Of a stretch of DNA of 64,000 nt, positions 2,595 to 60,226 are shown piece after piece (position 1 is the stretch's first letter; each line of letters begins with the position of its first letter). The notes below the pieces were generated by a model. That model was not told where the DNA came from, did no database searches, and worked only from the letters and a program-made list of their open reading frames with translations. The stretch is from SAR324 cluster bacterium. GTDB taxonomy: Bacteria > SAR324 > NAC60-12. The stretch spans positions 1 to 64,000 of the forward strand of contig JADFZZ010000023.1 of the NCBI GenBank assembly GCA_015232315.1. Direction: 5' to 3'. A program made the translations under genes and the position numbers.

Positions 2595-2710
2595 TCACAG
2601 AGGTTGATAATGAAACAAGCGGTCCGACACTCTATGGAAGATTTTAAACAAGACGTTTTGAAATTGGTTTGGAAGATGGGGAGGCGACCAATTTAAGCCG
2701 ATACAGTTAG

Positions 2711-2739
2711 GTAGAGACGGGTTTCAAACCCGTCTCTAC
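2711..2739. repeat. 29-bp perfect palindrome (REP-like), copy 1
   Basis: A 14-bp arm GTAGAGACGGGTTT, a single central C and the perfect complement of the arm. The same palindrome, with a central G, is found at 8823-8851, so the two copies are in opposite orientation. It lies just past the decayed 3' end of the AAA-ATPase-like gene. The neighbouring stretch 2740-2850 also looks repetitive but has no second copy in this window. Confidence 0.85.
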
Positions 2740-2852
2740 CGATGGTGCCCTTCCACGGTTCGTTGGCAAGCCACCGGAGGTGGGATAAGGAGGGTTCCCC
2801 ACCAGAGGTAGGGAACCAGAAAAAATGTTTAAAGATTCATGGTCGATTACTC

Positions 2853-3775
2853 AACTCAAAGCTCCAGCGGTTGTCTGGAAATAAAATTCAACACGGACCA
2901 GGGATTGAAGATCACCTGGTTGCCAAACAGATAGCCGTTATACCAATCCTGCACTTCCTGACGGCGGTGAGTCTGTTGGAAATCCTCCAGCATTTGATCC
3001 ACCTCCGGTTCCGTGAAGCCAAACCAGTTCGAAAATTGGGGCGATACCAGCGAATACACCCCGAGATTGTTGAGTCCGGAAAAAATCGAATCCCGGGCCA
3101 CTCGCAAAATCCCGGTCATGACGCTTTTTTCCAGATCCAGGTTGTCTTTCATCGCGCCGCTGAGCAGGTTGCGCATGAACAAAACCACGTCTTCATAGTA
3201 GCCATATTGCCACCCCGCGTGGATCGGCGTGTCATATTCATCAATCAGCAGTATGACTTTTTGCTGATGCGTTTTGTGCAGGAGTTTCATCAATAAGCGT
3301 AGGGCATTTCCGAGCAAGGGAACTGAAGCTTTTTTTGCGAGATCTCCTGGAGTTCCTGATTCTCTCTTGCTGTCAAATGATTGTGCTCCAAAACGGAGTA
3401 ATGACGTTCGACTTCCTCCGCTAACAACAAGCTCATCTCCTGGTAGCAGCTCTCCCAGGTTTTTTCCTTCACATCCTTGAAGGTGAGATAAATGACTGGA
3501 TACTGCCCCTGCCGGGCCATGAGTTCGGGATGTTGCGCAATCGCCAACTCGGCAAACAGCGCGGTGTTGGCAGGGTCGGTTTTTTCAAAGAAGTACCGTA
3601 GCATGGAAAGATTCAATGTTTTCCCAAAACGTCTGGGACGGGGCAGAAGCAGGACTTTATCCCCAAATTCCAGCACCTCCCGAATCAACAGACTCTTGTC
3701 CACATAGGTGTACGACTCTTCTATCAATTCCTTGAAATCCGATAACCCGATCGGAAGTTTGCGTTTGTGTGTCAT
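2853..3775 (-). pseudogene. AAA-ATPase-like protein (PD-(D/E)XK nuclease-linked family), frameshifted and truncated
   Basis: Two reading frames together encode about 310 residues of the AAA-ATPase-like family that usually carries a C-terminal PD-(D/E)XK nuclease-like domain. The start at 3775 is preceded by AAAGGAAC and begins MTHKRKLPIGLSDFKEL, the usual start of this family. A P-loop (RPRRFGKT) and Walker B (VILLIDEYDTP) are intact. The frame breaks near 3330-3336, where the coding strand reads caA AAA AAG; a -1 shift there joins QKK to ASVPLLGNALRLL and continues correctly. The protein then stops after FNPWSVLNFISRQPLEL, before the nuclease domain. Typical members have about 500-560 residues, so it is truncated even if the frameshift is bypassed. 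Such genes are often present as many decaying copies. Confidence 0.8.
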
Positions 3776-3837
3776 CGATGTTCCTTTCTCTGCTTGGCAG
3801 TGATTCCTGACGTCTCGTCGGGAACCATTCCATGTGT

Positions 3838-4527
3838 TCACTGTCCGTTCCTGATTTTCAATCGGGAACGTTCAATTTGATACAGAAAATCATTCAGCGA
3901 TTTCAAGGGGTCGCTTGCCCCCCAAACTCCAGAAATCGCGGCAATTCCATAAGCACCGGCCTTCATACAATTTTCAACACTTTCCGGTGTAATTCCCCCT
4001 AATGCGAAAACAGGAATTTTGCAATTATCAGTGATCAGGCTGAGACCTTCAATTCCCGGTACCACTGTTCTTTCAGGATGAGAGGTTGTTGGGAAAACGG
4101 GGCCGAATACCACAAAATCCGCACCCTGTTTTTCCGCTGTCAAAACCCCTTCCAGCGAATGCGTCGAGATTCCGACCGATAAAGATTGACGAAGGACAGG
4201 ATGCATTTTTTTCAATTCACAACTGTCTTCCCGAAGATGAACCCCTGACAATCCAAGATTCAATGCCAGATCCGCACGGTCATTGATAAATAGCGATACG
4301 TTGTGTTGAGGGGGCAGGCAATGGAGCAATTTTTCAGTGAAGCTTGTCAGGTCGCGGGGGGATTTGTATTTTTCCCTGATTTGCAGGCCCAGATGTCGTG
4401 AGGCAAGATGAGGTGCGAGTGTGAGAAGTTGATCGGGAAATTGCTCTTCGTTGCTGAGCAAATAGAAGCGAAATGGTGGGGGCGTCACAGAACGCATGAC
4501 AGGTAACAGATAGCCCTTCAGAATCAA
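3838..4527 (-). CDS. Thiamine phosphate synthase / TenI family protein
   Basis: 229 residues from a TTG start; an ATG at 4497 is an alternative and neither has a clear ribosome site. The TIM-barrel signatures of the ThiE/TenI family are present: NDRADLAL (82-89), GVHLRE (95-100), VGISTHS (118-124), FGPVFPTTSH (141-150) and ALGGIT (175-180) followed by AGAYGIAAISG. ThiE joins the thiazole and pyrimidine halves of thiamine; TenI is a thiazole tautomerase. True ThiE usually has GQxD after GVHL, where this protein has REDS, which is closer to TenI-like members. No other thiamine gene is in the window. The stop codon lies immediately upstream of the remnant AAA-ATPase region. Confidence 0.82.
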   Translation of the reverse strand: MILKGYLLPVMRSVTPPPFRFYLLSNEEQFPDQLLTLAPHLASRHLGLQIREKYKSPRDLTSFTEKLLHCLPPQHNVSLFINDRADLALNLGLSGVHLREDSCELKKMHPVLRQSLSVGISTHSLEGVLTAEKQGADFVVFGPVFPTTSHPERTVVPGIEGLSLITDNCKIPVFALGGITPESVENCMKAGAYGIAAISGVWGASDPLKSLNDFLYQIERSRLKIRNGQ

Positions 4528-4570
4528 TGAGTTGAGAAAATCATGAAGAATTTCTGAAGCTCAAATTTAT

Positions 4571-4636
4571 TCAAAACAAGTATGCCAGAAATGGTGAAAC
4601 CATTATTCCTACAAGCAGAACAGGTGTAAATATCAT
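4571..4636 (-). CDS. Candidate 21-residue hydrophobic peptide
   Basis: An ATG at 4636 is preceded, four bases upstream, by AAGGAGG (4647-4641), one of the strongest ribosome sites in the window. The frame encodes MIFTPVLLVGIMVSPFLAYL plus F and stops at 4571. The peptide is almost entirely hydrophobic, long enough for one membrane helix. It ends 43 bases before the TTG start of the ThiE/TenI-like gene, so it could be a small membrane protein or a leader peptide. No known family is recognised. The evidence is only the ribosome site and the composition. Confidence 0.4.
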   Translation of the reverse strand: MIFTPVLLVGIMVSPFLAYLF

Positions 4637-4822
4637 ATGTCCTCCTTCTCAGTTGTCCAGTATTCACACCAACCAGACAATCCGGAATTATCATTACAAG
4701 AAATCAATCTTCTCCCAGTCATCCTGACAAGAGACACCCGCTGACATCTTTCCTGTGTATGATCTTCAACTTCCTTGTTTGAGAAGGTTATCAACAACCT
4801 TAAAAAAACTATGACAATTAAT

Positions 4823-4849
4823 TAAAGAAAAAACAAACTGTTCCGATAA
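4823..4849 (+). promoter_or_regulatory. Sigma-28 (FliA)-like promoter, copy 1
   Basis: TAAA at 4823-4826, exactly 15 bases, then TCCGATAA at 4842-4849. The FliA consensus is TAAA-N15-GCCGATAA, so 11 of 12 defined positions match. FliA directs late flagellar and chemotaxis genes. The promoter points toward the ATG at 4940 and the flagellin gene, but the flagellin lies 1.7 kb away. Confidence 0.65.
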
Positions 4850-4984
4850 GAAAATCAAAGAAACTTCAGGGACTCAAAACAGAGTCTCCAGCACTGGATT
4901 TCAGCCTTGTGAATGGGTGAAACGCTGAAGGGAATAAAAATGGACAAAGTAAACCATAATCTTAAAAAAACTTAAGGGATCTGC

Positions 4985-5011
4985 TAAAGAAAATTTCAGG
5001 ACGACCGATAA
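4985..5011 (+). promoter_or_regulatory. Sigma-28 (FliA)-like promoter, copy 2
   Basis: TAAA at 4985-4988, exactly 15 bases, then ACCGATAA at 5004-5011, again 11 of 12 consensus positions. Both copies share the flanks AAAG after the -35 box and GATAAGAA at the -10 box, and lie 162 bp apart on the same strand. This suggests duplication or selection. Confidence 0.65.
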
Positions 5012-6426
5012 GAAGGACAAGACAAAAGAGAATTCTACCAAGTGGTTTAATCATATATTTCAAGATTCTACAGGTGGATTTTAGGCTCTCTCAAGAATGT
5101 TGTGAGATTAGCAGATAAAATTTTATTAACCATTGACGCTGAGGTTGTATGGGTATCGGAATCAAATTTTATGAAGAACGAATGGGACAACGAACAGAAC
5201 GTCCTGCGGACCGACAAAGTTTGTGCACCTTGCAGGGAATGGTATTTCAACCGGAATCTGTTGAAAGCATGACATCCATGACTCGTAGTGCGTGACCGGA
5301 ATGAGCCGGTGATTCCAGTATTGAATAAACAGGTTGTTTCAATAGATCACGTTTTCAATCTGCTGGTTGTTTGTGTGAATCAGGGTTTGTCCCATTGGGG
5401 GCCATTGAAGCAACTTGGCAATTGTGTCATCGAGTCGAAGACGAGAAATCGTCGAGTTGTCAGCGGGTTAAACGATTTTTCACATTCGTTCGCGATGACA
5501 AAGTGAACCCCTGTGAAGCTAACACAATACGCTGATTCAACGAGGGTTTGAGTTCATGGTTGAAGCCTGAGCAGGCACCAACCATGGTCGGGACTCATGG
5601 TTTTATGCTTGATTGACTCATGGGAACATCAGTCTGTTCACATGAATCCAAATCAATATCCAAAATTTCTGCTTCGCTATCGCAGACGCGTTTGTGTGCC
5701 TGATAGAATGAGGAGCTGAGTTGCCGTTATGAATTGCCAGCAGGATGTTGGCTGTCATAAAAAACAGTCTTATTTTTGAGGCGATCCTTTGCTGAGTCCT
5801 GGCGGACAGGCCTTAAAGTGACTTTGTCTTGAGGAACGAAGTGAGGCATCTTGGGAAAGTATCCTGCGTCAAGTGAGGCATTGATTTGGCTCTGTCGCAG
5901 CGTGTTTGAACGCCGGAATTTCGATGGTGAAACTCGCAAGTGAGATAGTCGTGGTGTGTGGCGATGAATATTGATCAGCATGACGGAAAATTTATTGTCA
6001 ATCCAGATTGTGGTTGATGGCACTGTTAACTGTGTGCATTAGCCTCCGTAGGGATTCATGAACAATGTTCCTGGAAGTTGATTTTGTGTCATCATCCGGC
6101 CGAATATTTCCAGCAAATTTTGTCTGATGAACAATGGATGTTCTTCATTGTAGAGGTATGTCCTTATCAAGGTGCGAGCTTTGTTTTTCGTCACGTGAAC
6201 CGGGGCAGGATTTCAGGTGTGTGCTTTCAAAACATTCAGCATAGAGGATACAATGTGAATTGCTATTCTGTTTATCAACTGGTCTGAGAACGTTGCAGGG
6301 ATTCATAAATTTCAGGTGATCCTGGCAATAAATAAATTCAGAAGGGTTGGAGTGCATTCAGTCAATAAATCAGCGATCTCTGATGTATTGTCTGAGTGCG
6401 CCATGCTCTCCATAAGGGATTACAAC

Positions 6427-6465
6427 GTATCATGCGCTCATAAATGATCATGTCGAACATGATAC
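6427..6465. promoter_or_regulatory. Inverted repeat upstream of flagellin 1, possible operator
   Basis: GTATCATG at 6427-6434 and CATGATAC at 6458-6465 are perfect complements. A second palindrome, ATCATGT-CGA-ACATGAT, occupies 6447-6463. They sit about 80-115 bp before the flagellin start, where a regulator could bind. No regulator gene is nearby to support this. Confidence 0.35.
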
Positions 6466-6511
6466 AATGCTTAAAAGTTTCAAATAAATAATATTTTTGC
6501 AACAAATCGGA

Positions 6512-6530
6512 AATAGAGAACTGCTCTATT
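6512..6530 (+). promoter_or_regulatory. Leader hairpin abutting the flagellin 1 ribosome site
   Basis: AATAGAG (6512-6518), loop AACTG and CTCTATT (6524-6530) form a perfect 7-bp stem that ends directly at the ribosome site AAGGAGG (6531-6537). Such placement could affect ribosome access or bind a post-transcriptional regulator. The leader of the second flagellin has no such stem. Confidence 0.4.
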
Positions 6531-6543
6531 AAGGAGGAATCAA

Positions 6544-8151
6544 ATGGCGATGCGAGTGAATACAAATATTGCGGCGATGACCGCATTGAGAAATTTGGAT
6601 CACACATCCAGGATGACGCAGAAAAACCTGCAACGACTCTCTTCAGGACAGAAAATCAACTCTGCGTCTGACAGTCCTGCGGGTCTGATGATATCCGAGA
6701 GTATGCGTGCCCAGATTTCAGGCCTTGAACAGGCTACGAAAAACTCTGAAACCTCCATTGCGATGGTTCAGACCGCTGAAGGGGCTTTGAATGAGGTGAG
6801 TAATATTCTGGTCAATATGCGTCAGTTGGCAATTCATGCGGCGAACGAAGGCGCAAACGATGAGAAAATGCTCGAAGCGGATCAGAATGAGATTGAGAAC
6901 TTGTTGTTTTCAATTGATCAGATTGCGAAAAACACCCAGTTCGGCACAAAAACACTGCTGGATGGGAGCACTGGTGCCAGCGGCGTTGCGGTGGGTGATG
7001 GTCTGGTGTTCGTGGAAGCGACCGATCAGACAAAACCATCTCCTGAACGTGGGTATGCCGTGAATATAACGCAGGTTGCGACACGGGCTATTGCGTCTGG
7101 ATCTCGTGAAATAACGGTCAATGACGCACGTGAGGAAATGTCATTTGTGATCAATGAAGGTGGAAAAACCGCTTCGTTGAGTACCTCGAAAGGGGAGATT
7201 CACGAACAGCTTAGTACATTACTCAAAAACCATGACCGTTCTCCTGAATTGTTTACCGCAGAAGAAACCTCGGCAAATGTCCGGGAGTTGATAGCTCGGC
7301 ATCTTCAGCGAAAAACGGAAGAGGCTGGACTTCAGGTTGATGTTTACATTGATGAATCGGGAATGTTGACGGTGCGTCATCGTGAGTTTGGTGGCAAGCC
7401 TTCGTTCAGTATTACGGGCAATGTTGATGGTGTTTTTTCCCTCAAAGCCAACGAAGCGGTTATTGCGGAAGAAGGAAAAGATGTGGCCGGTCTTATTGAA
7501 GGAGAACTGGCTTTTGGTGATGGTCAATTTCTGGTTGGAGCTCCTGGAACTCCGGCCGAGGGACTTAAACTGAAATTTGACAAAGTTCTGGGGACAAAGA
7601 TTGAAGAAGTGCTAGATCCTGAAACCAACGAAGTTATCAGTAAAAATGTGGTCAAGGAAGATAACAACACCCTGGTGGGCGGTGATGTTGAGGGATATAT
7701 CCATGTCAGTCAGCAATCGCTCGGATATCAGGTTGGGCCTAATTTTGGTCAGCAGATTCATCTATCGTTGTCGGATATCCGTTCCAACAAGTTGTCAAGG
7801 TCTGTTGAAAACAGCAGTGGCTTTGGCAGTTTGTCCGACATTGATGTGACCAATTCTGATGGATCACAGAACAGTATTCTGATGATTGATGGCGCTATTT
7901 CAGAAATTTCCAACTTGCGGGCAAAACTGGGATCCTTCCAGAAAAACGCCTTGGAGACAAATCTGAACTATCTGAAAGTTGCTACCGAGAATCTGTCCAA
8001 TTCAGAATCCATCATTCGTGATGCGGATATGGCGGCTGAAATGAGTGATTTTACTAAAAACCAGATCATGCTTGCTTCTGGAACTGCAATGGCGGCCCAG
8101 GCAAACCAGATCCCCAAGTCCGTTCTGCAGTTGCTCAACGGGGCTCAGTAA
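6544..8151 (+). CDS. fliC: Flagellin 1
   Basis: 535 residues, the structural subunit of the flagellar filament, exported through the flagellar type III apparatus. The N-terminal D0/D1 helices (residues 1-140) have the usual features: MAMRVNTNIAAMTALRNL, QRLSSGQKINSASDSPAGL, and a stretch ending FGTKTLLDG. The C-terminal D1/D0 helices (about 435-535) include RAKLGSFQKNALETNLNYL and SGTAMAAQANQIPKSVLQLL. The central part is long and contains a DVAGLIEGELAFGDGQFLVG motif shared with flagellin 2, plus about 60 extra residues. The start is fixed by AAGGAGG six bases upstream. The next gene is the second flagellin about 1 kb downstream; no fliD, fliS or flaG is present, so the flagellins are separated from the other flagellar genes. 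Confidence 0.95.
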   Translation: MAMRVNTNIAAMTALRNLDHTSRMTQKNLQRLSSGQKINSASDSPAGLMISESMRAQISGLEQATKNSETSIAMVQTAEGALNEVSNILVNMRQLAIHAANEGANDEKMLEADQNEIENLLFSIDQIAKNTQFGTKTLLDGSTGASGVAVGDGLVFVEATDQTKPSPERGYAVNITQVATRAIASGSREITVNDAREEMSFVINEGGKTASLSTSKGEIHEQLSTLLKNHDRSPELFTAEETSANVRELIARHLQRKTEEAGLQVDVYIDESGMLTVRHREFGGKPSFSITGNVDGVFSLKANEAVIAEEGKDVAGLIEGELAFGDGQFLVGAPGTPAEGLKLKFDKVLGTKIEEVLDPETNEVISKNVVKEDNNTLVGGDVEGYIHVSQQSLGYQVGPNFGQQIHLSLSDIRSNKLSRSVENSSGFGSLSDIDVTNSDGSQNSILMIDGAISEISNLRAKLGSFQKNALETNLNYLKVATENLSNSESIIRDADMAAEMSDFTKNQIMLASGTAMAAQANQIPKSVLQLLNGAQ

Positions 8152-8156
8152 TCTTG

Positions 8157-8192
8157 ACGCGGCCTCATGGTCAATCAAACCATGAACCGCGT
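8157..8192 (+). terminator. Hairpin after flagellin 1
   Basis: ACGCGG pairs with CCGCGT and, inside it, CATGGT pairs with ACCATG, separated by a short bulge. It starts five bases after the stop codon. There is no run of T behind it, so it may stabilise the messenger 3' end or terminate weakly rather than act as a standard intrinsic terminator. Confidence 0.5.
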
Positions 8193-8743
8193 TGAGCGTA
8201 ACAACGGAAACCATTGATACCAAGATTCTGATAATGTGCCCGGAATCATTGATCTATGGATTTGTTAGGGAAATTGTTTTTGAGCGTCACAAATTTTAAT
8301 GGTGACAGCGTGGTAGTGTAACAGATGGATAGCAATGTATTGAAGTTTGGGAATAGAGTTTCTGGTCCCCCAATCGGTTTTACAGAATTTGAAAATAATG
8401 ATGTCACAGGGTGTTTCATGGATAGTTGCTCCAGCCATGCAAATCGCTCCTGCTACGTATGATTATTTACAGGTTCCGTATGATTTCAAAAGCACCTGAA
8501 ATCCGGTGAAAAAATGATGGTTCCCCGGGATTTCCCCGTGAGGAGGATCCAGGAAGAAAACTGAAGCCTGCATTGAAGGGTTTCGTTGCCGTATTGAATC
8601 CGGATATATCGGAGTGGATCTTTCTGATAATACGAACCGGCTTCTCTGTGTGTAGAGGTTTCTGAGTAGCGATTGATAAAACTGTAGCGTCTTGGATACT
8701 TGTTTCTCATTGGGAGATGATCCATGAATCTCCTGAAATTTTG

Positions 8744-41152: not shown

Positions 41153-41473
41153 ATGGAGCACCAAACGAGCTTGATGTATGTCACCATGCCCAACATGGAA
41201 GACGCCGGAAAACTGGCTGAAAAACTTGTATCAGAACGGCTGGCCGCCTGTGTGAATCTGATTCCGGGGATGCAGTCTTTTTATTGGTGGAACGGGGAAA
41301 TTCAACAGGCGCAGGAAGTGATACTGCTGGCCAAGACAACTGTGGAACGGGTATCTGAATTGACGGAATTTATCCGGAAGCAGCACCCCTATGACTGTCC
41401 CTGCGTGGTGGAACTGCGGATTGCTTCGGGCAATCCGGATTTTATACAATGGATTACCAGAGAAACTCGTTAA
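41153..41473 (+). CDS. cutA: Divalent-cation tolerance protein CutA
   Basis: 106 residues, a typical CutA1 trimer subunit with a ferredoxin-like fold. Conserved parts are SERLAACVNLIPGMQSFYWW, the segment EVILLAKTTVERV and HPYDCPCVVELRI. CutA is associated with copper and other divalent cation tolerance, although its exact function is not settled. The start follows GAAGGAGAGG. Its stop overlaps by four bases with the convergent stop of the next gene. Confidence 0.95.
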   Translation: MEHQTSLMYVTMPNMEDAGKLAEKLVSERLAACVNLIPGMQSFYWWNGEIQQAQEVILLAKTTVERVSELTEFIRKQHPYDCPCVVELRIASGNPDFIQWITRETR

Positions 41474-43494
41474 CGCTCGGAAAGATTGATGGGGGATGAC
41501 TGGGCAATGGTGATGAGATCATTTTTTATTTTCACATTGAGGAAATGTTTCTGAAGTTCCGCACTATATTTTTTTCGGATAAAATTCCTGATGACCCTGT
41601 ATTCAGGAAATGACAGCGTCTTTTCATAGGCATTCACAAATTCATCATTGCGGTTCAACACGAAATGTTCGATGTCTTTGGGTTCCGGGTCAGTGATGTT
41701 CCCCATTACGGCGGTTCCCATGGCGATGCTGTAATAAATTTCTTCAATCAGATTCCAATAGGAAATGAGACTTTCAAAGTATGAGAAATTTTCCATGAAA
41801 TGATTTCTCAATGTGGTGCATTTCTCAAAAAACAACCCGGGATTGATGTTGTTATATTTATCAGTCAATTTACGAACATCCTTATTCACTTCGGTTAAGG
41901 GCGCCAGCATTTCACGGGCTTGCGGATACAGTCGTTCCAGTTGTGCCACCCGTATTTCAGTGACCTGATTTTTTTTGTGCAGTTTGTTAAGAAAACTTGC
42001 GGCGGCTTCGGGTTCCAGATCCAGGGCAATCATATAGGCAATCGAAATAAACCGGCGTCCGGGACGCATGCCCGGCATCTTGGGAATTAAAAACTGGAGC
42101 GGAACTCTGGCAAACTCAACCATTTCAGGAAATGTCAGACTGCTTCGAAGTTCCCAGTTCTGGACAATCAGGTCCAGAACATTGCTGTCTTGAACAATCA
42201 CAATGTTCAAGGCGTTCTTGTTTTTGTCTCTCAACTCCTCAATTGAATTTGCCTGTGTCAGATTTGGAATATCAATCAGTTTCGGACCTTCTTCTTTTTT
42301 GGGTGATTTTGAAGGTGATGGGGCCGAGGGCGCTTTTTGAGAATCCTTGATCTGCTGGGCGGAAATCACCAGGCCTTTGGCGGGTTTCCGGAATTCGGGT
42401 ACTGGAAAGTTGACGGGTTCTCCAAACACTTTACGGATTGTTTCCGGAATGGATGAATCTTCCAGAATTTTCTTTTCGCGGACTACTTCCGTGATGGTGT
42501 CATACCCATTGATCATCCAGTCACGTCCTTGTGACTCTGTCACTTCTGTAGAGGTGAGTTTGTTTGAAATAAACGCATACATGTCCGCAACAGTTTTAAT
42601 GCTCAACACACAGTATTCTTCAATCACCCGTTTTCGCTCCACGGGCGTCAGCATTCCGACAAGCACAGCCTTGCGCATGGGCGAGGAGATTTCCTTGTAT
42701 TGCAAAAAGAATTGTCTGGGGTTCGCGGGTGGCAACAGCAGACATTTTTGTTCATGCTGAGTCACTTCCGAAGTTTGTTCGAGATCTGAATAATTCAAGG
42801 TGGTTTTGTTTTGAAATTCGATAAATATTTTTTGGAGATTCCATGGAATGGAGATTCCATTTTTAAAATAGGCCATCAGCAAATTGCTGAAAACGATGTA
42901 CATGCGTCGGAAATTATGAATGTCATATCCCTGAATGTTGCGGGTTTGACGCTTGTTGAGGTATTCAATTGTTTCCAGTGCGTCGATGAAGCCGTCCTTC
43001 TCTTTGTTCTGTTCTTTGGCAAAGGCTTCAATCAGTCTTGGTTGCAGATCCTCCAGTTGCAGGATATAACGGCAGAATTTATAGATCCAGCGCTGGATAA
43101 AAATATGAATGTAGGCTTGTCTGTCGTCTTCATGGATATTCTTTTTGTAGGACAGAATTTCCTTGATCAGATCCGAAACTCGCAACAATCCATAGCGCAG
43201 AAGAATGGCATCCATCATGCGTGGAATGACCTCATTCTGTTTGGGTGCTCTGATCAGCGCGTAATATTCCATGGAGGCTGCACGTTCCGTGTGTTTTTCC
43301 AGCATACTCCTCAATGCTTCAATATCCTCCTCACTGCCTTTCGGGAGAATTGAGCCAACAATCTCATAATATTCCTGATCAAACCGCAGATTCTGCTCAA
43401 GGTAAAAATTGAGTTCATCCACCATTTTATCAGCATTGTTGAACGCTACTTCCCGCGTCAGCAATTCTTTGGTAACTTTTTTGTCTTTGCTCAT
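41470..43494 (-). CDS. Large hypothetical helical protein
   Basis: 674 residues, cytoplasmic. It starts with a charged, helical N-terminus (MSKDKKVTKELLTREVAFNN), has helical domains at 30-370, a Ser/Pro/Lys-rich hinge (about 390-410, QKAPSAPSPSKSPKKEEGPK) and a second helical half to the end. A segment around 200-230 (VFSNLLMAYF ... GISIPWN) has a counterpart in the 807-residue protein at 57803-60226 (IFSNFFTAFM ... RISIPPN). This suggests the two are distant paralogues. No known family is recognised. Confidence 0.6.
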   Translation of the reverse strand: MSKDKKVTKELLTREVAFNNADKMVDELNFYLEQNLRFDQEYYEIVGSILPKGSEEDIEALRSMLEKHTERAASMEYYALIRAPKQNEVIPRMMDAILLRYGLLRVSDLIKEILSYKKNIHEDDRQAYIHIFIQRWIYKFCRYILQLEDLQPRLIEAFAKEQNKEKDGFIDALETIEYLNKRQTRNIQGYDIHNFRRMYIVFSNLLMAYFKNGISIPWNLQKIFIEFQNKTTLNYSDLEQTSEVTQHEQKCLLLPPANPRQFFLQYKEISSPMRKAVLVGMLTPVERKRVIEEYCVLSIKTVADMYAFISNKLTSTEVTESQGRDWMINGYDTITEVVREKKILEDSSIPETIRKVFGEPVNFPVPEFRKPAKGLVISAQQIKDSQKAPSAPSPSKSPKKEEGPKLIDIPNLTQANSIEELRDKNKNALNIVIVQDSNVLDLIVQNWELRSSLTFPEMVEFARVPLQFLIPKMPGMRPGRRFISIAYMIALDLEPEAAASFLNKLHKKNQVTEIRVAQLERLYPQAREMLAPLTEVNKDVRKLTDKYNNINPGLFFEKCTTLRNHFMENFSYFESLISYWNLIEEIYYSIAMGTAVMGNITDPEPKDIEHFVLNRNDEFVNAYEKTLSFPEYRVIRNFIRKKYSAELQKHFLNVKIKNDLITIAQSSPINLSER

Positions 43495-46293: not shown

Positions 46294-49200
46294 ATGTTGT
46301 TTGACCTCATACGCTTTGATTATTTTTTCCCTCGGGTGTTTCTCCTGCTGGTGAATGCCTGTGTGTTATTTTTTCTGGCCTCCCTGATCATCCAGACGGG
46401 GAGGGAAGAACGAAAACATCAGTTGCTCAGCATTTTCCTGATCATCCAGACAATTTCCTGTCTTAATTCTGCGTTTCGCCATCTGCTGATATCCCATCAA
46501 CTGGCATTATACATTGTCAGGGGCGATGCCATGATTTATCTGTTCAGCATTCCTGTCGGAATTCATTTTATTCATAAAGTCGTGGGCCTTCAGAATCGTC
46601 AATGGCTACCCCGATTCCTGTATCTGTTTATTTTATTTTCATTGCCGCTGGTTTTGACCCCGTATTATATTTGGGGAATACAGGAAACTCCCTATGGTCT
46701 GGGATGGAGGGGCGGATGGTTTCAAAAAACAATTAGCCTCACAGCGTTGCTGGTCGTGTGTTATGGAACCGCATTGCTGATCAAACAGTTACTGCGTAAC
46801 AATTCGGTCAAAAAACAGCAGGAGTTGTGGTTTGTTCTGGGTGGGTTTGCCTCAAATGCCATGTTGCAGATCATCTCTGCCATTCTGAATACTCTGGAGA
46901 TTCGTATTTATCCGATTTCAGATTTTGCTTTTATTCCAATGCTACTGATGACCTACGGCGTCCTGCGTTACCGTTTTCTGGAAACACAACAAAGCTGGAT
47001 TTCAGAAAAAACACTGGCAAAAGTCATGTTCTGGTTTGCGTGGATGGCGCCATTGATAGCGCTGGTTTACATCGCGCTGATTCCTGAACAATTGCTTCTG
47101 CCGGATGTCTATGATCGGGTGATTCATTATGGATTGCCTTCGCTGGTGACCATTGTGACCTGTTTCGGACTGGCCTCATTTTGTTTGTCCGCGGGTTTCA
47201 TGCAGATGGATAACCGGTTGTTCGGAATTACATGCCTGCTCTGGGGAGGACTGGGCATTGAGATGCTGTTTCATCATGTCCTGGGCGATGCGACGACAGA
47301 CCTTGTCATCACAAGGATTGATCATTTTTTTCTGGTTTATCAGGTGCCGGTTTATATGCATCTGATCTATACGCTCATCGACAGGCAACACCGGAAATTG
47401 ATCGTGTCCAATTATCTGCTGTCTTTTATGCTCATGTGCACGGTTCCTACATCCTGGTATTATCAGGATACAATGCGCTCGTTTTCCTGGGGATGGTATC
47501 CCGTTCCCTCCTGGGGATTTCTGATTTTTTCAGTCAATTCAGGAGTCATGTTGCTCTGGGGCCTGTTTTTGCTGTGGCGTGCATGGCGGGTGGACACAAC
47601 TTCAGAACGAAAACAGCAGTTGGGTTTTATCTTTGCGGGGATTTCCTTTGTGGCGCTCCTCAATCTGGGCAGTGCGTTGCCTGTTTTCGGTATTTCGCTG
47701 TATCCACCCGGAAATTTTACCTTTCTTCCCATGTTCATGATGGCCTGGGGAATATTTCGTCATGATCTGCTTAAATTCAATCCGTATACAAAAAAAAGGA
47801 TACTCGCAAAAATTCTCACGGGTTGTACCTGGCTGGGATATGGTGCCTGTGTTCCTGTGTTGTGGTGGACGTTACGGGATCTTCCACCGGAATACATCCT
47901 GGAGCGCATCATTCCTTATGGTTTGCCGCCGCTTGTTTCGTTTCTGTGCGCGTTCACACTTTCATTCATGTTGCTTAAATTCGCGCCCAATCAGCAGGAA
48001 AGTCAGGTGTTCAACCTGATTTGTCTGTTGTATGGCTTTCTGAATCTTGATATTTTTCTGAACAGCATTGTGCCTGATAGTACCATTGGTCTCCGTCTGG
48101 CACGGTTGAATCACTTTTTTTTCGTGCTCACGTTAGGTCTCAATCTGCATTTGCTGTTTCTGCTGACCAGGCGCAAACGGCATCAATGGCTGGTAAAAGT
48201 CGGTTATGCCATCAGTTTCATGATGGTGCCTCTCAGCCAGACATCCTGGTATTTTCAGGGGATGTACCGTTATGAATGGGGATTTTTCGCCCAAAAATCA
48301 GTTCTGTTTGACTTCATGAGTCTCTGCTGGACCGGGGGAATTATCTACAGTGTCATCATTCTGTTCAAGCACTACCATCACAGTGTTCAACCGTTTGAGA
48401 AGCATCGTACACTCTATTTGCTGGCAGGATGGTTTCTGTCGACAGTGATGCTGTTCGGCAATATTCCCGCAATGCATGGCTATGAAGTGTATCCTTCGGG
48501 GAATTTTTCTTTCATTCCGTTATCTGTCATGGCTTATGGCATGATGGTGCACAACCTCAAGGAATTGCTCGCCCTCATCCGTACAGGAGCCTATTGGATT
48601 CTGCTTGGGATTGTATTGGTTTTCACCATGTTCTTTCTGGAGAGCCTTCTTGCTTTGTGGCATATTCCGACGCCATGGAGTCTGGTTCTGGAAGTCATGG
48701 CCGGTCTGAGTGCTTATCTTATTCTCAAGCGGGTTCTGATCGCTGTATTGAACGTGTTTATTCCCCCCGAAACAGTGTCTTTTCAACAAAATTTTGATTT
48801 TCTGATAGAACTGCTTTCACAGTCCACCCGTTATCGGGAAGTGTTTCAGTTTGTGAGTTATTCCCTGTTTAACAAGGTATCCGCTGAACGCTGTGCGGTT
48901 TTGGCTGTTTCTCAAGGTCGGACAGAACTTTCGGGTTGGGACTACCGGAGTTTCCAGACAGGTTTTTTTGAGCAGGCCAACCCGGTGTACGGAGCCGAAG
49001 AACCCTTGCAATTGAGCATCGCACACCCTGTTTTCGCTAAAATTGTACAGCGAAACAAAATTTATTTTCAGGAGGAAATCGCACAGAAATTATTCCTCCT
49101 GGACATTCTCAATGAGGCAGGGGACAGAGTGACGCAGGCGGAGATCATTCATCCCATTTACTATGAAGAGCAACTCATTGGTGTGATTCTGCTGGATGAG

Positions 49201-50796
49201 AAAACAGATGGATCGCTGTTTTCGTTGATGGAACAAGATTTTATCCATCAGATCGGCAGTGCCCTGGGCCCCTTTCTCAACAGTATCCGTCTGACTCAGG
49301 GGTTGGAAGACAAAGTAGAGGAAAGAACCCGACAACTGGCTGATGCTCACAACGAAATGTCACATATCAATCAGGTCATGGGTCTGGTCAATTCCACACT
49401 GAATATCCAGGATGTGATCATGGCTGTCATGCAATCCCTGGTCAATGTGTTGAATTTCAACCAGTGCGGTGTGTTTCTGGTGGACTCCGAAAAACAGATC
49501 ATGAAAGCGGATGTTTATTACGGATCAGGAGTGACTCATGAAATAGCCAGTCAGATTCTGCAAGTGGAATTACCTTTCAAGGCTTATACAAGCTATATTT
49601 GTGAAACCTGCCTGAATCAGGAAATTTATTATTTTTCCCCTGTCACTCCTGAAATGGTTTCATGCTTTTTTCAGGCGGATTACAATTTTCATCAAATAAA
49701 TCCTGTCGCCTCCTATCTTCTGTTTCCTTTAATCATCCAGAACAAAGCCATCGGCACACTGGTGTTTTCGCACTCAGAGGAACCTTTTTCTCTTGAGGAG
49801 CAGGATCTTGAACGAATCCAGCGGTATGTGTCCCAGGTTGCGTCGGCGGTGCACAACGCTCACTTGTATTCGCAACTGAAGCAAACCAGGTTTCAACTGG
49901 CGGAATCCCAAAAAATCATGGCGATGACACAGACCTTTCAAAAATTTGTACCACAGCAGTTTTTGCGCAGAATTGCTGGTGAAAACCTCGAAGAAATCGC
50001 GCTGGGTGTTGCTCAAGGTGATTTTATTACGGTGCTGTTTTCCGATATCCGGAATTTTACAGGTTTTTCAGAAACGGTCACGCCTCAGGAATTGCTGAAT
50101 TTTCTCAATGCCTATTTTCAGCGAATGAGTGACGCAATTCATCAGTGTCAGGGATTCATTGACAAATTCATTGGTGACGCGATCATGGCCTTGTTTGATT
50201 TGCCCGACCAAACAGATGAACAGGAAGCCGTTTGCGCCATTCATGCGGCAATCACCATGCAGAAAGCGGTTGCGGAATATAACCGGCACCGGGCGCAATC
50301 AGGGTATCATCCCGTCAAAACCGGAATCGGGATCCATAGTGGTCCTGTGGTGATTGGAACAGTAGGATCCCGTGACAGGATGGACAGCACAGTATTGGGG
50401 GACACGGTCAATGTGGCCTCACGTCTGGAAAGTCTGACCAAACAATATGGTGTGCCCATCATCGTCAGCGGCCATACCATAAAAATGATCCACTCCATGA
50501 AATTGTTCAGTTACAGGGAAATTGATTATATTCAGGTTCGGGGAAAATCAGAGTGGGTGACCATTTATGAGATTTTTGACCATGATTCTGCTGAAATTCG
50601 GGAACTCAAACAAAAATCCGGAACGCATCTTCAGATGGGCTTAGCCCATCGATACGTTCAGGATTGGGCCTCCGCAGAACACCATTTCCAACAGGCACTC
50701 CAGATTTATCCGGAAGACCCGGTGGCCAGGTATCATCACAATCAATGGCAACAGCAACTAGAGACGCTGTCGCCTCAAACGCCGCTTGTGCAGTGA
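46294..50796 (+). CDS. Giant class III adenylate cyclase with three tandem membrane sensor modules and two GAF domains
   Basis: 1500 residues. The first 770 residues are three tandem copies of a seven-helix membrane module with a period of about 264: the YP..(D/N)F.F.P motif occurs at 206, 470 and 733, and (H/P)YGLP starts modules 2 and 3 at 278 and 541. Two GAF domains follow (about 790-1010 and 1040-1200), separated by a coiled coil (DKVEERTRQLADAHNEM). The cyclase domain (about 1235-1420) has both metal aspartates (FSDIRNFT D1251, FIGDAI D1295), the adenine-selecting lysine K1291 and NVASRLE, all intact, so it should make cyclic AMP. The C-terminus is TPR-like. The ribosome site is weak. 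No receptor ligand can be named. Confidence 0.88.
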   Translation: MLFDLIRFDYFFPRVFLLLVNACVLFFLASLIIQTGREERKHQLLSIFLIIQTISCLNSAFRHLLISHQLALYIVRGDAMIYLFSIPVGIHFIHKVVGLQNRQWLPRFLYLFILFSLPLVLTPYYIWGIQETPYGLGWRGGWFQKTISLTALLVVCYGTALLIKQLLRNNSVKKQQELWFVLGGFASNAMLQIISAILNTLEIRIYPISDFAFIPMLLMTYGVLRYRFLETQQSWISEKTLAKVMFWFAWMAPLIALVYIALIPEQLLLPDVYDRVIHYGLPSLVTIVTCFGLASFCLSAGFMQMDNRLFGITCLLWGGLGIEMLFHHVLGDATTDLVITRIDHFFLVYQVPVYMHLIYTLIDRQHRKLIVSNYLLSFMLMCTVPTSWYYQDTMRSFSWGWYPVPSWGFLIFSVNSGVMLLWGLFLLWRAWRVDTTSERKQQLGFIFAGISFVALLNLGSALPVFGISLYPPGNFTFLPMFMMAWGIFRHDLLKFNPYTKKRILAKILTGCTWLGYGACVPVLWWTLRDLPPEYILERIIPYGLPPLVSFLCAFTLSFMLLKFAPNQQESQVFNLICLLYGFLNLDIFLNSIVPDSTIGLRLARLNHFFFVLTLGLNLHLLFLLTRRKRHQWLVKVGYAISFMMVPLSQTSWYFQGMYRYEWGFFAQKSVLFDFMSLCWTGGIIYSVIILFKHYHHSVQPFEKHRTLYLLAGWFLSTVMLFGNIPAMHGYEVYPSGNFSFIPLSVMAYGMMVHNLKELLALIRTGAYWILLGIVLVFTMFFLESLLALWHIPTPWSLVLEVMAGLSAYLILKRVLIAVLNVFIPPETVSFQQNFDFLIELLSQSTRYREVFQFVSYSLFNKVSAERCAVLAVSQGRTELSGWDYRSFQTGFFEQANPVYGAEEPLQLSIAHPVFAKIVQRNKIYFQEEIAQKLFLLDILNEAGDRVTQAEIIHPIYYEEQLIGVILLDEKTDGSLFSLMEQDFIHQIGSALGPFLNSIRLTQGLEDKVEERTRQLADAHNEMSHINQVMGLVNSTLNIQDVIMAVMQSLVNVLNFNQCGVFLVDSEKQIMKADVYYGSGVTHEIASQILQVELPFKAYTSYICETCLNQEIYYFSPVTPEMVSCFFQADYNFHQINPVASYLLFPLIIQNKAIGTLVFSHSEEPFSLEEQDLERIQRYVSQVASAVHNAHLYSQLKQTRFQLAESQKIMAMTQTFQKFVPQQFLRRIAGENLEEIALGVAQGDFITVLFSDIRNFTGFSETVTPQELLNFLNAYFQRMSDAIHQCQGFIDKFIGDAIMALFDLPDQTDEQEAVCAIHAAITMQKAVAEYNRHRAQSGYHPVKTGIGIHSGPVVIGTVGSRDRMDSTVLGDTVNVASRLESLTKQYGVPIIVSGHTIKMIHSMKLFSYREIDYIQVRGKSEWVTIYEIFDHDSAEIRELKQKSGTHLQMGLAHRYVQDWASAEHHFQQALQIYPEDPVARYHHNQWQQQLETLSPQTPLVQ

Positions 50797-55177: not shown

Positions 55178-56932
55178 TCATTCATAAATGTAACTGGTGA
55201 CCGTGTAACACAGAACCTCGGCCTCACAGGCATTCACACACAGTTGCGTGGTCGTATCGGTCGCGCCATCTTTGCAGAGATTGCCCTCGGAATCATAAAA
55301 CTTTTTCGCTTTCAGATAGAGATTTGCGTCATATTCATAGGAAATATTGTAACTTTTCGTGGCATCGCCTGTGTCATCCACATAGTAATACTGCTCTTTT
55401 GTTTTTTCTCCTGTCAAATCATAGGTATATTCAACTTGTGTGGCCAATATGAATTTTGAGGAGTCTGTTGAATAATTGTAAGCCATGGATGTGATCAGAC
55501 GACCTTTGAGGTCATAGGTGTACTCGGTTTTGTTGGAAGGATCGATTGCGATTCCATTATTGATACAATTGTATTTAACGATAGAAAATGTGATCGAATC
55601 CGCATCCTGACTGTAACTGTATTCCTGCTTTCCTCCGGAGACAGAAATGCTGTTTTCGGTGATGTCTGTGGAACTGCAAGTTTGGCTGGAGCCAATGTCA
55701 TAAGCCACTCGAGATGATTTTCGCCCCAGCGTGTCATAAGTGTAAAGCGCCTCAAACGTCAATTTGTCATCCTGATCGAAAATATCAACTGCGCCAGGGC
55801 GACCTTTGGCGTTGAGTGTGTAGGATTTGGTAGAAGCAAGAAAAACAGGGTTGTAATTATATTCATGGACCAGGTTGCCGTTGTTATCATATTCGTAGTC
55901 TTTGGTGATTTGCGCACTTGAAACACCTGCGCTTTTTGTAAATCTCAGGATCGTTTGACGCTGCATTTTTTCAATGCTCAGATCATAATAATCGATGGTA
56001 TTCACTTCACGTAAAAACTCAGTGGAGGTTTTTTCGCCGGAATACCGGACTGTCGTGGTTTTTCGGGTTTGCGCCACCTTGTCAGTTTCTTCTGTGATGC
56101 TCTGGCGGGCATATCCCAGTTCGCAGTAATCACCAATTTCCTCATCCACGTTGTAACAGGTAATTTCCTCTATCCGGGTGTTATACTTGTCATCAGACGT
56201 GACGGTTCGACTGGTTTTCACTTCGAAGGAAATGTCTTCGGAGGCATCTTTATAGACCACTTTATCTGTGGCATAAAAAGATCCGCCAAAGGGATCCTTG
56301 CCATAGGTGAAAACACTTTTGGTTACAAACTGATTGTCTGTGTTTCCTTCTTTTTTAGAGATGAGGGTCGCTTCGGTTAGTATCTTGTTTTTATTCAGTT
56401 TCAGCGTCCATGAACTGACAGTGTTGGTTGGTGTTGTGACGACTGTTCCATTTTTGTCATAGTTGGTGGTGTACATCCGTCTGGGATAGATGGGCACCAC
56501 TCCCTGAAAACGAGCAATGTTCCGGGGAAAGGTTTTATCAGAAAATTTCGGGGTTTCCAGCGAGGGGTAACTGGTTTTGCTGTTGAGCAGAACCGGTCCG
56601 TTGCTAGCCAGTGGGGATGACTGCACATGAAACAGACTGATGGTTTGTCCATCTTTTGAAATGGTTGGAATCAAACTGTTTCCTTTCAAACCATTATCAT
56701 GCCATTTCCAGAAAATGGATTCAAAGGGTTGGGTTCCACTGAGAACCAGACGGGTGACACCGTTGATCCTGTCCTGATCTGTCAGATTGAAGCCTACAAA
56801 TCGGGCTTTTGACAGAACCATGTCACTATTTTCCAGTTCCTGTTGTGAACCTGTATCATTGGTGCAGGCTGCGATCAGTCCAAGCAACAGCCAGCTCAGA
56901 ATAAGACTAGAAGGGCGAGATAGCATGACCAT
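55178..56932 (-). CDS. Lipoprotein with YD (RHS-like) repeats
   Basis: 584 residues. The signal peptide ends in lipobox IAAC with Cys23, so it is lipid-anchored. Residues about 300-540 contain many YD/RHS-type units: YEYDNNGNLVHEYNY, YTLNAKGRPGAVD, YTYDTLGRKSSRVAY, EYTYDLKGRLITSMAY, EYTYDLTGEKTKEQYYY. In RHS proteins these form a shell of beta-strands around a cargo; here the protein is short and ends in CYTVTSYIYE without a toxin tip. It lies 14 bp after a barrel-protein gene that would be transcribed first, so the two may form an outer-membrane complex. Confidence 0.75.
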   Translation of the reverse strand: MVMLSRPSSLILSWLLLGLIAACTNDTGSQQELENSDMVLSKARFVGFNLTDQDRINGVTRLVLSGTQPFESIFWKWHDNGLKGNSLIPTISKDGQTISLFHVQSSPLASNGPVLLNSKTSYPSLETPKFSDKTFPRNIARFQGVVPIYPRRMYTTNYDKNGTVVTTPTNTVSSWTLKLNKNKILTEATLISKKEGNTDNQFVTKSVFTYGKDPFGGSFYATDKVVYKDASEDISFEVKTSRTVTSDDKYNTRIEEITCYNVDEEIGDYCELGYARQSITEETDKVAQTRKTTTVRYSGEKTSTEFLREVNTIDYYDLSIEKMQRQTILRFTKSAGVSSAQITKDYEYDNNGNLVHEYNYNPVFLASTKSYTLNAKGRPGAVDIFDQDDKLTFEALYTYDTLGRKSSRVAYDIGSSQTCSSTDITENSISVSGGKQEYSYSQDADSITFSIVKYNCINNGIAIDPSNKTEYTYDLKGRLITSMAYNYSTDSSKFILATQVEYTYDLTGEKTKEQYYYVDDTGDATKSYNISYEYDANLYLKAKKFYDSEGNLCKDGATDTTTQLCVNACEAEVLCYTVTSYIYE

Positions 56933-57555: not shown

Positions 57556-57802
57556 GGGCTGTTTATGGACTAGACAGTTATGTTCCCAGATCCTGAGTTA
57601 TTGAATAGGAATGAGAATAGCATCAACGAAGCTAACCTTGTTATTTCAGTTTTATTCTTTTAATAGTGATTTACACCCTCTGGATGGGGAAATCTTAATG
57701 CAAATCCTGTCCCAATTTGGTGCATACCGGTTAAATTGACGATAGATCACAGGCTTTTTGTGGTCAGAACAAGTTTTATTCTTCAGGCTGTGGAATTCCA
57801 TG

Positions 57803-60226
57803 GGAACCGAAATGAATCAAAGCACACAGACACAATATCCATCGGCGCAGATTGTGGCCAAATTGCTGGAAGAAATTCAGCGGAAAATTGGTATGGATGT
57901 TCATTCTACCAATCTGATTAAAATGGTGAGTCTGTTTATTCGTCCCAAAAGCGAACAAATCGGGCATGTCATCAAACTGGATATCACTCACTATTTCAAA
58001 TCCCCTCATGTTCAGGCCCATTTTGCCCAACTGAGTCAGATCGGTGATGTGTTTGATGAATTGCTGAATGTGATTCCCAGCTTTTTGTTTCTGATTTCAG
58101 GACAGTTAGCCAGTAATCAAACCTTTCAGAAACATTCAGAATACATTCGTTTGCTGGGGGTGCGTTATCTGGTCGGTCAGGAAGCCACCCTGAATGTTCC
58201 GGCCAGGTTTTTTATCAGCACCCTGTCTCCTGAGGATTCAGCCGGAGATCTGCATGAGAAAGCCTTTACCGAAGATATGCATTCTACGTATTTCCCCTAT
58301 CTGATTCGGGGCGATTTGTATAATTTTATCCAGACGTTTCAGTTTCTTCCAGGCAATAACAAACAGAATATTGTAGAAAATCATTATCTTGCGGAAGGGA
58401 TTTTTGCCATATTCTTCAAATACTATTTTGATCTGCTGGCCAATTCCACGCATGGTGGCATGGCAGAAAACATCTATGAAATTTTTTCCAATTTTTTTAC
58501 GGCTTTCATGTACAAAAAGCGGATCAGTATTCCGCCCAATGCCATGACACAGGATTTGCTGCACAATGAAAAAGCCCACCCCTATATTAAAAAATATCAC
58601 TTCGACATGTTGCGGAACACGATGCCGCTGTTGATCACCCCCAAGGAACATCAGTCCCTGACCAATCATCAACTGGCGATTTTTCAGTCACGTCTGGATA
58701 CGCTCCGGCAATTTCCTCCTGCCGCCTTCACTTTTTTATTGCTTACCCTGCATGATATTAAAGGCGGCAAGGCTGTGAAATATCTGGTGGATTTTTTATT
58801 GAAGGAGGAACCGAATCTGTTTGAACGATTCCAGTTGGAAATGCATGTACAGTCACTGATCAGACTTTATGGGAATCTGTTGGATTCGATGGATGAAAAG
58901 TTTGTAAAACGTTTGATTCAGTTGCTGGCAATTGAGAAAAAAACCAGATTCATTGAATTACGCAATGAACTGCTCCAACGCCAGAAGAACAATGTCCTGC
59001 TGAAACTGGTAGAAGACATCAGTCTGTCAATATTTGATTTCAGGCCACCGCCCAAAGTGATCAACGATTTACATCTCAGTGAAGAATCACGCAGGCTCAA
59101 GGACGCGCAAAACAAACTGGAAGCGCTTTCGAAAAATCCTGATCGTAAAAAGCTTACCCAGAAAGACATTGAAGCCCACATTGAGGAATGTTTGAACCGC
59201 TTGTATGAAACGGTTCGTAAACCCAATGCCATGACTTCCGCGGATATCACTGCCTATCTGAAACACGTCCGGGAAATGGCAATGGCTGCCGCGGCCGAAT
59301 CCAGTGAGGCGATGGACACAGGGTTTGCGCAAAATTATGAGCAAAACTTTATCAAGTCTCACCCCACCGAAAATTTCCGGGAAATTTTTGGATTGCCACA
59401 ACCAGAAGTCCCTGAGGGGCACATGACCTTTGAAGAAGTGGAAGTTGATCCCTCGTTGCAGAAACATCCACAGGCCTTTCGGCAATTCAAAAGCAAACAG
59501 GTGGAACGTCCGAATATTCAGGTTTATAAACGGGCCATACGCACGGTGGTAAGTTTTGAACTCAGCAATGCGAAAAATCAGAAAGTATCCATTCCGCTGA
59601 TTCTGGAACGATTCCTGACGTTGCCCATCGGCTTAAAAGACAAACTGCGCTTTTTGCGGTTGCACATTTCAGATAAATACATACCAGATGATATTAAATC
59701 CGTTGTTTATGCAGAACAGCAACGGCAAGGACTCAAACCTGTCAATCCATTGCATGTTTTTGACAAGGATGGACAGGTTAAGCCCAATAGTGTTTACAGT
59801 TTGCTCAAGCTCATGAAAGAATGGGAAGGTTGCTTCATCGATAAAGTGATCATGGTGCCGATTGCCGGAATGAATCATTTTGTAACTCTGTTTGATTTTT
59901 TATCATTTCCTCTGGCACCGTTACCAGACAGTCCGTTGCCGGAAAAGTACCGGCACCTGTCACAGCATTTGAAATATATCAAGATGCTGATCCAGGAAGG
60001 TGTGGTCAAACAGGATCAGTTAGAAAAAATAAAACAGTACCTTCATTTTTTTCCAAAATTTGAGTACACTCAGACATTCCAGTTTGTACACCTCAATAAA
60101 ATTGATCGAAAGGTACTTCAGGAAGTTTATGTGATGTGGAATAATCGTAAGTTGTATCCTCTACGAAAAGACGCTCAGACAGATCCCAACGGAATGGAAG
60201 ACGATGTGCCATTGATGGATAAATAA
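57803..60226 (+). CDS. Very large hypothetical helical protein
   Basis: About 807 residues from the ATG at 57803 (another ATG lies at 57815; a longer frame from 57758 is less likely). No signal peptide or membrane segment is evident. Helices dominate the first 460 residues, including a stretch related to the 41470-43494 protein (IFSNFFTAFM ... RISIPPN). A charged middle (about 440-500) contains ALSKNPDRKKLTQKDIEAHI. The C-terminal 300 residues are mixed and rich in aromatic residues and lysine. The fold and function are unknown. Confidence 0.65.
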   Translation, partial: GTEMNQSTQTQYPSAQIVAKLLEEIQRKIGMDVHSTNLIKMVSLFIRPKSEQIGHVIKLDITHYFKSPHVQAHFAQLSQIGDVFDELLNVIPSFLFLISGQLASNQTFQKHSEYIRLLGVRYLVGQEATLNVPARFFISTLSPEDSAGDLHEKAFTEDMHSTYFPYLIRGDLYNFIQTFQFLPGNNKQNIVENHYLAEGIFAIFFKYYFDLLANSTHGGMAENIYEIFSNFFTAFMYKKRISIPPNAMTQDLLHNEKAHPYIKKYHFDMLRNTMPLLITPKEHQSLTNHQLAIFQSRLDTLRQFPPAAFTFLLLTLHDIKGGKAVKYLVDFLLKEEPNLFERFQLEMHVQSLIRLYGNLLDSMDEKFVKRLIQLLAIEKKTRFIELRNELLQRQKNNVLLKLVEDISLSIFDFRPPPKVINDLHLSEESRRLKDAQNKLEALSKNPDRKKLTQKDIEAHIEECLNRLYETVRKPNAMTSADITAYLKHVREMAMAAAAESSEAMDTGFAQNYEQNFIKSHPTENFREIFGLPQPEVPEGHMTFEEVEVDPSLQKHPQAFRQFKSKQVERPNIQVYKRAIRTVVSFELSNAKNQKVSIPLILERFLTLPIGLKDKLRFLRLHISDKYIPDDIKSVVYAEQQRQGLKPVNPLHVFDKDGQVKPNSVYSLLKLMKEWEGCFIDKVIMVPIAGMNHFVTLFDFLSFPLAPLPDSPLPEKYRHLSQHLKYIKMLIQEGVVKQDQLEKIKQYLHFFPKFEYTQTFQFVHLNKIDRKVLQEVYVMWNNRKLYPLRKDAQTDPNGMEDDVPLMDK

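Follow-up and report, generated by a model that had tools for sequence, protein, structure and literature searches.

Three homologous, predicted seven-helix modules of the HisKA_7TM kind ahead of a putative adenylate cyclase in a SAR324 cluster bacterium

Can a single bacterial chain carry three seven-helix membrane sensors in tandem and place them in front of one catalytic domain? This question is raised by an open reading frame (ORF) of 1500 aa at 46294..50796 (+) in the window, that is, the whole 64,000-nucleotide stretch of DNA analysed here, for which the initial annotation had proposed three such modules from recurring motifs. From the ORF call and its motifs, the product is described as a putative triple-7TM receptor adenylate cyclase, in which module 1 (M1) covers aa 1-264 (46294..47085, +), module 2 (M2) aa 265-529 (47086..47880, +) and module 3 (M3) aa 530-793 (47881..48672, +). 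Both reported motifs were recovered: YP..(D/N)F.F.P at residues 206, 470 and 733 reads YPISDFAFIP, YPPGNFTFLP and YPSGNFSFIP, and (H/P)YGLP reads HYGLP at 278 and PYGLP at 541. The M1 counterpart of the YGLP motif is degenerate in the window protein (FPRVF) and appears as FPYAIPP in paralogues. In a self dot-plot, the best off-diagonals were found at offsets 263, 264, 265 and 528, in agreement with the annotated period of about 264. Pairwise BLASTP gave E 8e-21 and 25% identity for M1-M2, E 5e-35 and 30% for M2-M3, and E 5e-09 and 20% for M1-M3, with Z values against shuffled sequences of 15.0, 20.6 and 11.4, respectively. Shuffling was done within 8-residue blocks and thus preserved the hydropathy pattern, so that the likeness of the modules exceeds shared hydrophobicity; their homology was confirmed. 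Hydrophobic repeats can mimic homology, and misassembly of a repeated gene could produce a similar picture, but an artefact of either kind is scarcely conceivable in view of Z values of 11-21 against hydropathy-preserving shuffles and of the occurrence of the triple in 12 genes at separate sites of the genome and in the assemblies of other organisms. A chance repeat is ruled out by the combined dot-plot, BLAST and shuffle results.

The modules had been likened to the seven-helix sensor region at the N-terminus of histidine kinases, and this likeness was borne out by Pfam. The whole protein scores 39.7 bits for HisKA_7TM (PF16927), above the cut-off of 28.6, with the match in M1 at aa 17-230 of the full protein, and M2 alone scores 31.2 bits. 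M3 alone (aa 530-789) gave no PF16927 match in the Pfam search and is placed, on sequence grounds, as a divergent HisKA_7TM relative linked to the family through its homology to M2 (E 5e-35). The family trait of seven transmembrane (TM) helices with a cytoplasmic C-terminus is found here by prediction, as hydropathy, charge bias and AlphaFold2 (AF2) modelling all indicate seven helices plus a linking helix. HisKA_7TM is listed as a sensor domain of archaeal kinases, and the passages naming the domain are silent on tandem copies (PMC5847659, PMC6944256). The present protein shares with this family the above-threshold sequence match, the N-terminal placement and a signalling output downstream, but differs in that three copies follow one another in a set order, joined by linking helices. 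Furthermore, its output is a class III cyclase and not the histidine kinase expected for PF16927, and the outputs of the related arrays are likewise mostly cyclase, GGDEF or SpoIIE.

In contrast to the earlier estimate of about 20 membrane helices, the count is about 25 (8+8+9), owing to an eighth, linking helix in each 264-residue period and a ninth helix after M3. Hydropathy averaged over 21 aligned proteins revealed 25 hydrophobic segments, divided into eight in M1, eight in M2 and nine in M3 including the exit helix, with positive charge mostly alternating on the cytoplasmic side. The linking helices (TM8) are predicted at aa 238-262 in M1, aa 497-527 in M2 and aa 752-788 in M3, and TM9, placed by topology and the AF2 model at aa 793-822 (48670..48759, +), would return the chain to the cytoplasm. 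The AF2 model of aa 1-850 (pLDDT 83.8, pTM 0.62) contains eight helices and one beta-hairpin per module, the hairpin lying on the outer side between helices 4 and 5 (aa 126-140 in M1, 390-405 in M2 and 654-668 in M3); at this pTM it is uncertain how the three bundles pack against each other. M3 modelled alone reached pLDDT 94.2 and pTM 0.86. The repeat unit is accordingly predicted to be a seven-helix bundle plus one linking helix (7+1), and one linking helix per period would give all three bundles the same orientation. An arrangement of seven helices per period with modules in alternating orientation was rejected in favour of 7+1, on account of the eighth hydrophobic helix in every period and the matching charge alternation. 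The helix counts of relatives, judged by eye, fit the same parity rule.

Structural comparison pointed to a resemblance in predicted fold: nearly all PDB matches listed for the modules are G protein-coupled receptors (GPCRs), the others being a small number of microbial rhodopsins and one designed fold of GPCR-like type. Absence of a family from the Foldseek or VIA matches excludes nothing. For instance, the M1 model matched the FSH receptor (FSHR) with a VIA Z of 16.6 over 231 residues at 4.1 A, and the M3 model matched GABA-B with a VIA Z of 16.2 over 215 residues at 3.5 A. The Foldseek matches of M3 are modest, with a best E of 2.8e-3 and, for ADGRL3, a TM score by target of 0.63 at E 3.7e-3. 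GPCR families of Pfam are missing from the matches of the window protein, and an M3 sequence profile found no match up to E 10 among the sequences of solved structures. The modules are therefore described as having a GPCR-like predicted fold, with no claim of homology to GPCRs and no implication of shared function. What the two share is the predicted seven-helix arrangement and the outer beta-hairpin between TM4 and TM5, as in class C (GABA-B/mGlu) and adhesion GPCRs, whereas sequence homology is undetected, an eighth linking helix and three bundles per chain are present here, and a fused cyclase stands where GPCRs act on a G protein.

Downstream of the membrane region, the annotated intact class III cyclase was upheld, while the two GAF domains stood only in part. 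The second GAF domain is clear (aa 1036-1187, 49399..49854, +; PF01590 E 1.4e-11, the Pfam match spanning aa 1038-1186). The first (aa 857-990, 48862..49263, +), a profile match under the Pfam cut-offs, is only probable, with E about 0.01 for GAF and 4e-4 for SpoVT_C, a GAF relative. The segment FQKFVPQQFLRRI (aa 1215-1227, 49936..49974, +), which occupies the position of the linker element just N-terminal of class III cyclases, is taken by us to be the cyclase-transducer element. The catalytic domain follows at aa 1243-1423 (50020..50562, +; PF00211 E 8.1e-29), with adenylate cyclases as its nearest solved structures. All catalytic residues are present, namely the metal-binding aspartates D1251 and D1295, the adenine-type K1291 and D1370, N1373 and R1377, and such a set of D, K, D, D, N and R is expected of an active adenylate cyclase. 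The product of the window protein would thus be cAMP, as far as its residues allow us to infer. A weak TPR match under the cut-off (aa 1445-1475, 50626..50718, +; PF07719 E 2e-4) lies C-terminal of the cyclase. The cytoplasmic half resembles tandem-GAF class III adenylate cyclases, in which GAF domains likewise precede a class III cyclase carrying adenine-type residues, but it is preceded here by a 25-helix receptor region. In addition, the source genome (5.25 Mb) yielded 45 matches for class III cyclases and 48 for cNMP-binding domains, a large cAMP-type signalling repertoire, so that cAMP is plausibly a major messenger in this organism. The genes around the ORF (GTP cyclohydrolase I, DUF6976, a 2OG-Fe(II) oxygenase and an AAA/VWA pair) gave no clue to a ligand, a scan of the window against Rfam at the gathering threshold returned no RNA, and a promoter and terminator scan returned nothing usable. 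Three long ORFs of the window, at 41470-43494 (-), 55178-56932 (-) and 57758-60226 (+), have no Pfam match at E 1e-5.

The initial annotation had called the receptor unusual. Other proteins with two or more copies were found, and the description holds insofar as the architecture is rare, but it does not concern one odd protein: the source genome encodes 12 module-bearing proteins including that of the window, each with exactly three modules, and relatives occur in further lineages. A unique protein is ruled out by these paralogues and relatives. Among the 12 triples the outputs are a class III cyclase in seven (the window protein included), GGDEF in three, and HATPase_c and SpoIIE in one each. 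Three of the genes lie within about 24 kb (L022 2705-7756, L022 10501-14589 and L023 2209-6717; G000:C3:115704-139722), two with cyclase and one with GGDEF output. On the contig of the window, just outside it, a remnant of a thirteenth array (L032 3304-4540; G000:C23:79304-80540) joins most of one M1 to a GAF region through an internal deletion and contains an in-frame TAG; it is apparently a decayed copy.

Beyond the source genome, the module was found in one other of 52 genomes of the same phylum, with two copies in one protein. In the class to which G060 (a Desulfobacteraceae genome) belongs, 99 of 291 genomes contain the module, and about eight of these, counted by eye, encode multi-module proteins, the copies numbering at most three. 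In the spirochaete phylum, 44 of 198 genomes contain it, about twelve having pairs, and in the phylum that includes G066 it occurs in 43 of 247 genomes, where at least four triples are present. Triples thus occur also in Desulfobacteria and other "Deltaproteobacteria" and pairs in spirochaetes, and a single module is the commonest form. No protein with four modules was seen among the limited candidates scored per genome, and no viral relatives were found.

The history of the array was addressed with a tree of 70 modules, from which the SpoIIE paralogue L030 and several divergent long-branch relatives were left out, and L025 module 2 was set aside in the branch test. Herein, M1, M2 and M3 of the triples each fall on one side of a branch, with support of 100/99, 99/89 and 100/99, and each group mixes proteins of the source genome with those of other lineages. 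From such positional groups across lineages it follows that the ordered triple array is old and that duplication or transfer involved it as a unit, while its outputs were exchanged. A recent independent triplication in each protein is ruled out by the tree. In L025 1591-7164 (-), module 2 groups with its own module 1 (43% identity) and is a replacement derived from it, the count being kept at three. This case and the invariable copy number of three in the 12 paralogues would suit a different reading, in which all three modules bind one common ligand and act as an intramolecular cooperative trimer. That reading is quite improbable, since the positional classes are old and divergent, with about 22-25% identity between them, and since pairs and singles exist. 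Modules that occur singly fall into two groups, an M1-like one found before histidine kinases and an M3-like one before GGDEF (e.g. L083). In every multi-module protein placed in the tree, the module nearest the output is of the M3 type; M2 is absent from the spirochaete pairs and from L138, and M1 from L142.

A division of labour among the modules is suggested by conservation. Among the 12 paralogues, mean identity is 34% for M3, 32% for M1 and 31% for M2, so that over its whole length M3 is just marginally better conserved. Within M3, conservation is higher in the outer half than in the inner (0.60 v 0.51, p 0.0008), which is not the case in M1 or M2. The M3 motifs, PYGIPP at the top of TM1, R604..H607 in TM3, TQT..Y and WG in the hairpin, and P725-F740 in the turn between TM6 and TM7, lie mainly on the outer face. 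Their position and the conservation suggest a shared role of M3 in recognition or coupling, although outer-face conservation could reflect folding instead of ligand binding. Furthermore, M1 and M2 keep conserved motifs of their own across lineages (P13, R76, H94, Y110, G184, P215 and G222 in M1; H356, Y374, Y498 and Y516 in M2).

From these observations, a multi-input membrane receptor for cAMP signalling, with M3 driving synthesis and M1 and M2 adding or modulating inputs, emerges as the probable, though by no means assured, function. Three bundles of the HisKA_7TM kind would be joined head to tail by linking helices, in the same orientation and with the N-terminus outside. The bundles would sense ligands or conditions at their outer face, causing a shift in M3, the output-side coupling module, whose rearrangement would pass through TM8 and TM9 to the GAF domains and helical linkers and on to a cyclase dimer, which would then change its cAMP production; M1 and M2, fixed in order, would add or modulate inputs. 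The assignment of M3 as the coupling module is drawn from its output-nearest place and its most conserved outer face, and we infer ligand binding at the outer face, the direction of signal flow and dimerisation. One- and two-module relatives are numerous, so that three modules are not required for signalling as such.

Two further rivals bear on what the modules sense. Possibly only M3 does so, M1 and M2 forming a structural or localising membrane platform for packing, clustering or assembly that has no ligand of its own. The significantly higher outer-side conservation of M3 alone, the single occurrence of M3-type modules, and the loss of M2 from spirochaete pairs and L138 and of M1 from L142 would all fit such a platform; its likelihood is nevertheless rather low, as M1 and M2 retain their motifs at high levels across lineages and M1-type modules, standing alone in histidine kinases, plausibly sense by themselves. 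Alternatively, the modules may bind a redox or metal cofactor (haem, quinone or metal) through the TM3 residues H91/H356/H619, H344/H607 and R76/R341/R604, so that the array would sense redox or respiratory state and not a small ligand. It is unusual for a membrane helix to conserve charged residues and histidines, and here the TM3 histidine column is conserved at 74/91/93% and the arginine column at 83/70/100% in M1/M2/M3. This reading is unlikely, given that no known cofactor motif was recognised and that the M3 profile lacks a sequence match to any solved structure. The multi-input receptor stays the favoured interpretation.

A seven-helix sensor on a signalling output is a known kind of system, and the new element is the ordered triple array with 25 helices, of which no description was found in the literature searched. 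The 7TMR-DISM receptors, bacterial 7TM receptors with diverse intracellular signalling modules (PMC1592074, PMC6107284), follow the same logic of a seven-helix receptor on interchangeable cytoplasmic outputs. The present protein differs from them in its tandem array and in having no extracytoplasmic globular domain, and 7TMR-DISM (PF07695) is absent from its Pfam matches up to E 1. Bestrhodopsins, algal fusions of rhodopsin and bestrophin, place one or two tandem seven-helix sensors per chain on one output (PMC12291454), and thus also drive a single output from tandem sensors, but they are retinal photoreceptors on an ion channel and are likened here by architecture alone, not by sequence. As a tentative proposal, somewhat doubtful as it stands, the arrays may constitute a receptor class of their own in bacteria. 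Three bundles of GPCR fold, in a fixed order that allows no interchange, would together form a single allosteric sensor, in effect an intramolecular receptor hetero-trimer, and this unit would have been attached to cAMP, c-di-GMP, kinase and phosphatase outputs alike. If the favoured multi-input reading is correct, bacteria have come to combine several receptors of GPCR-like fold in a single chain, each subunit having about 25 membrane helices, to feed one second-messenger enzyme. The array would provide a tractable system for studying cross-talk between linked seven-helix receptors, which is usually discussed in terms of dimers and oligomers of GPCRs. It could also help to establish to what stimuli HisKA_7TM domains respond, and for what reason the arrays of one genome all have three modules whereas relatives manage with one or two. 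The module itself would offer a GPCR-like predicted fold that, judged by the M3 profile, has no detectable sequence relative among solved structures.

Relatives elsewhere show further arrangements. In the same family-level group, L138 (G005:C52:21000-33000; ORF 1558-8613, 2352 aa) encodes in order a Ser/Thr kinase, one TM helix (near aa 385), WD40 repeats, two 7TM modules of the M1 and M3 types, GAF domains and a class III cyclase, with 17 helices between the WD40 region and the cyclase. Judged from the number of helices, the WD40 propeller would lie outside the cytoplasmic membrane, and with the kinase assumed to be cytoplasmic and the WD40 region outside, the cyclase would again lie inside. 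In Spirochaetota, two-module proteins at L079 6971-11602 and L078 6989-12733 end in a histidine kinase, a receiver and a SpoIIE phosphatase, thus carrying kinase and phosphatase outputs behind one receptor chain.
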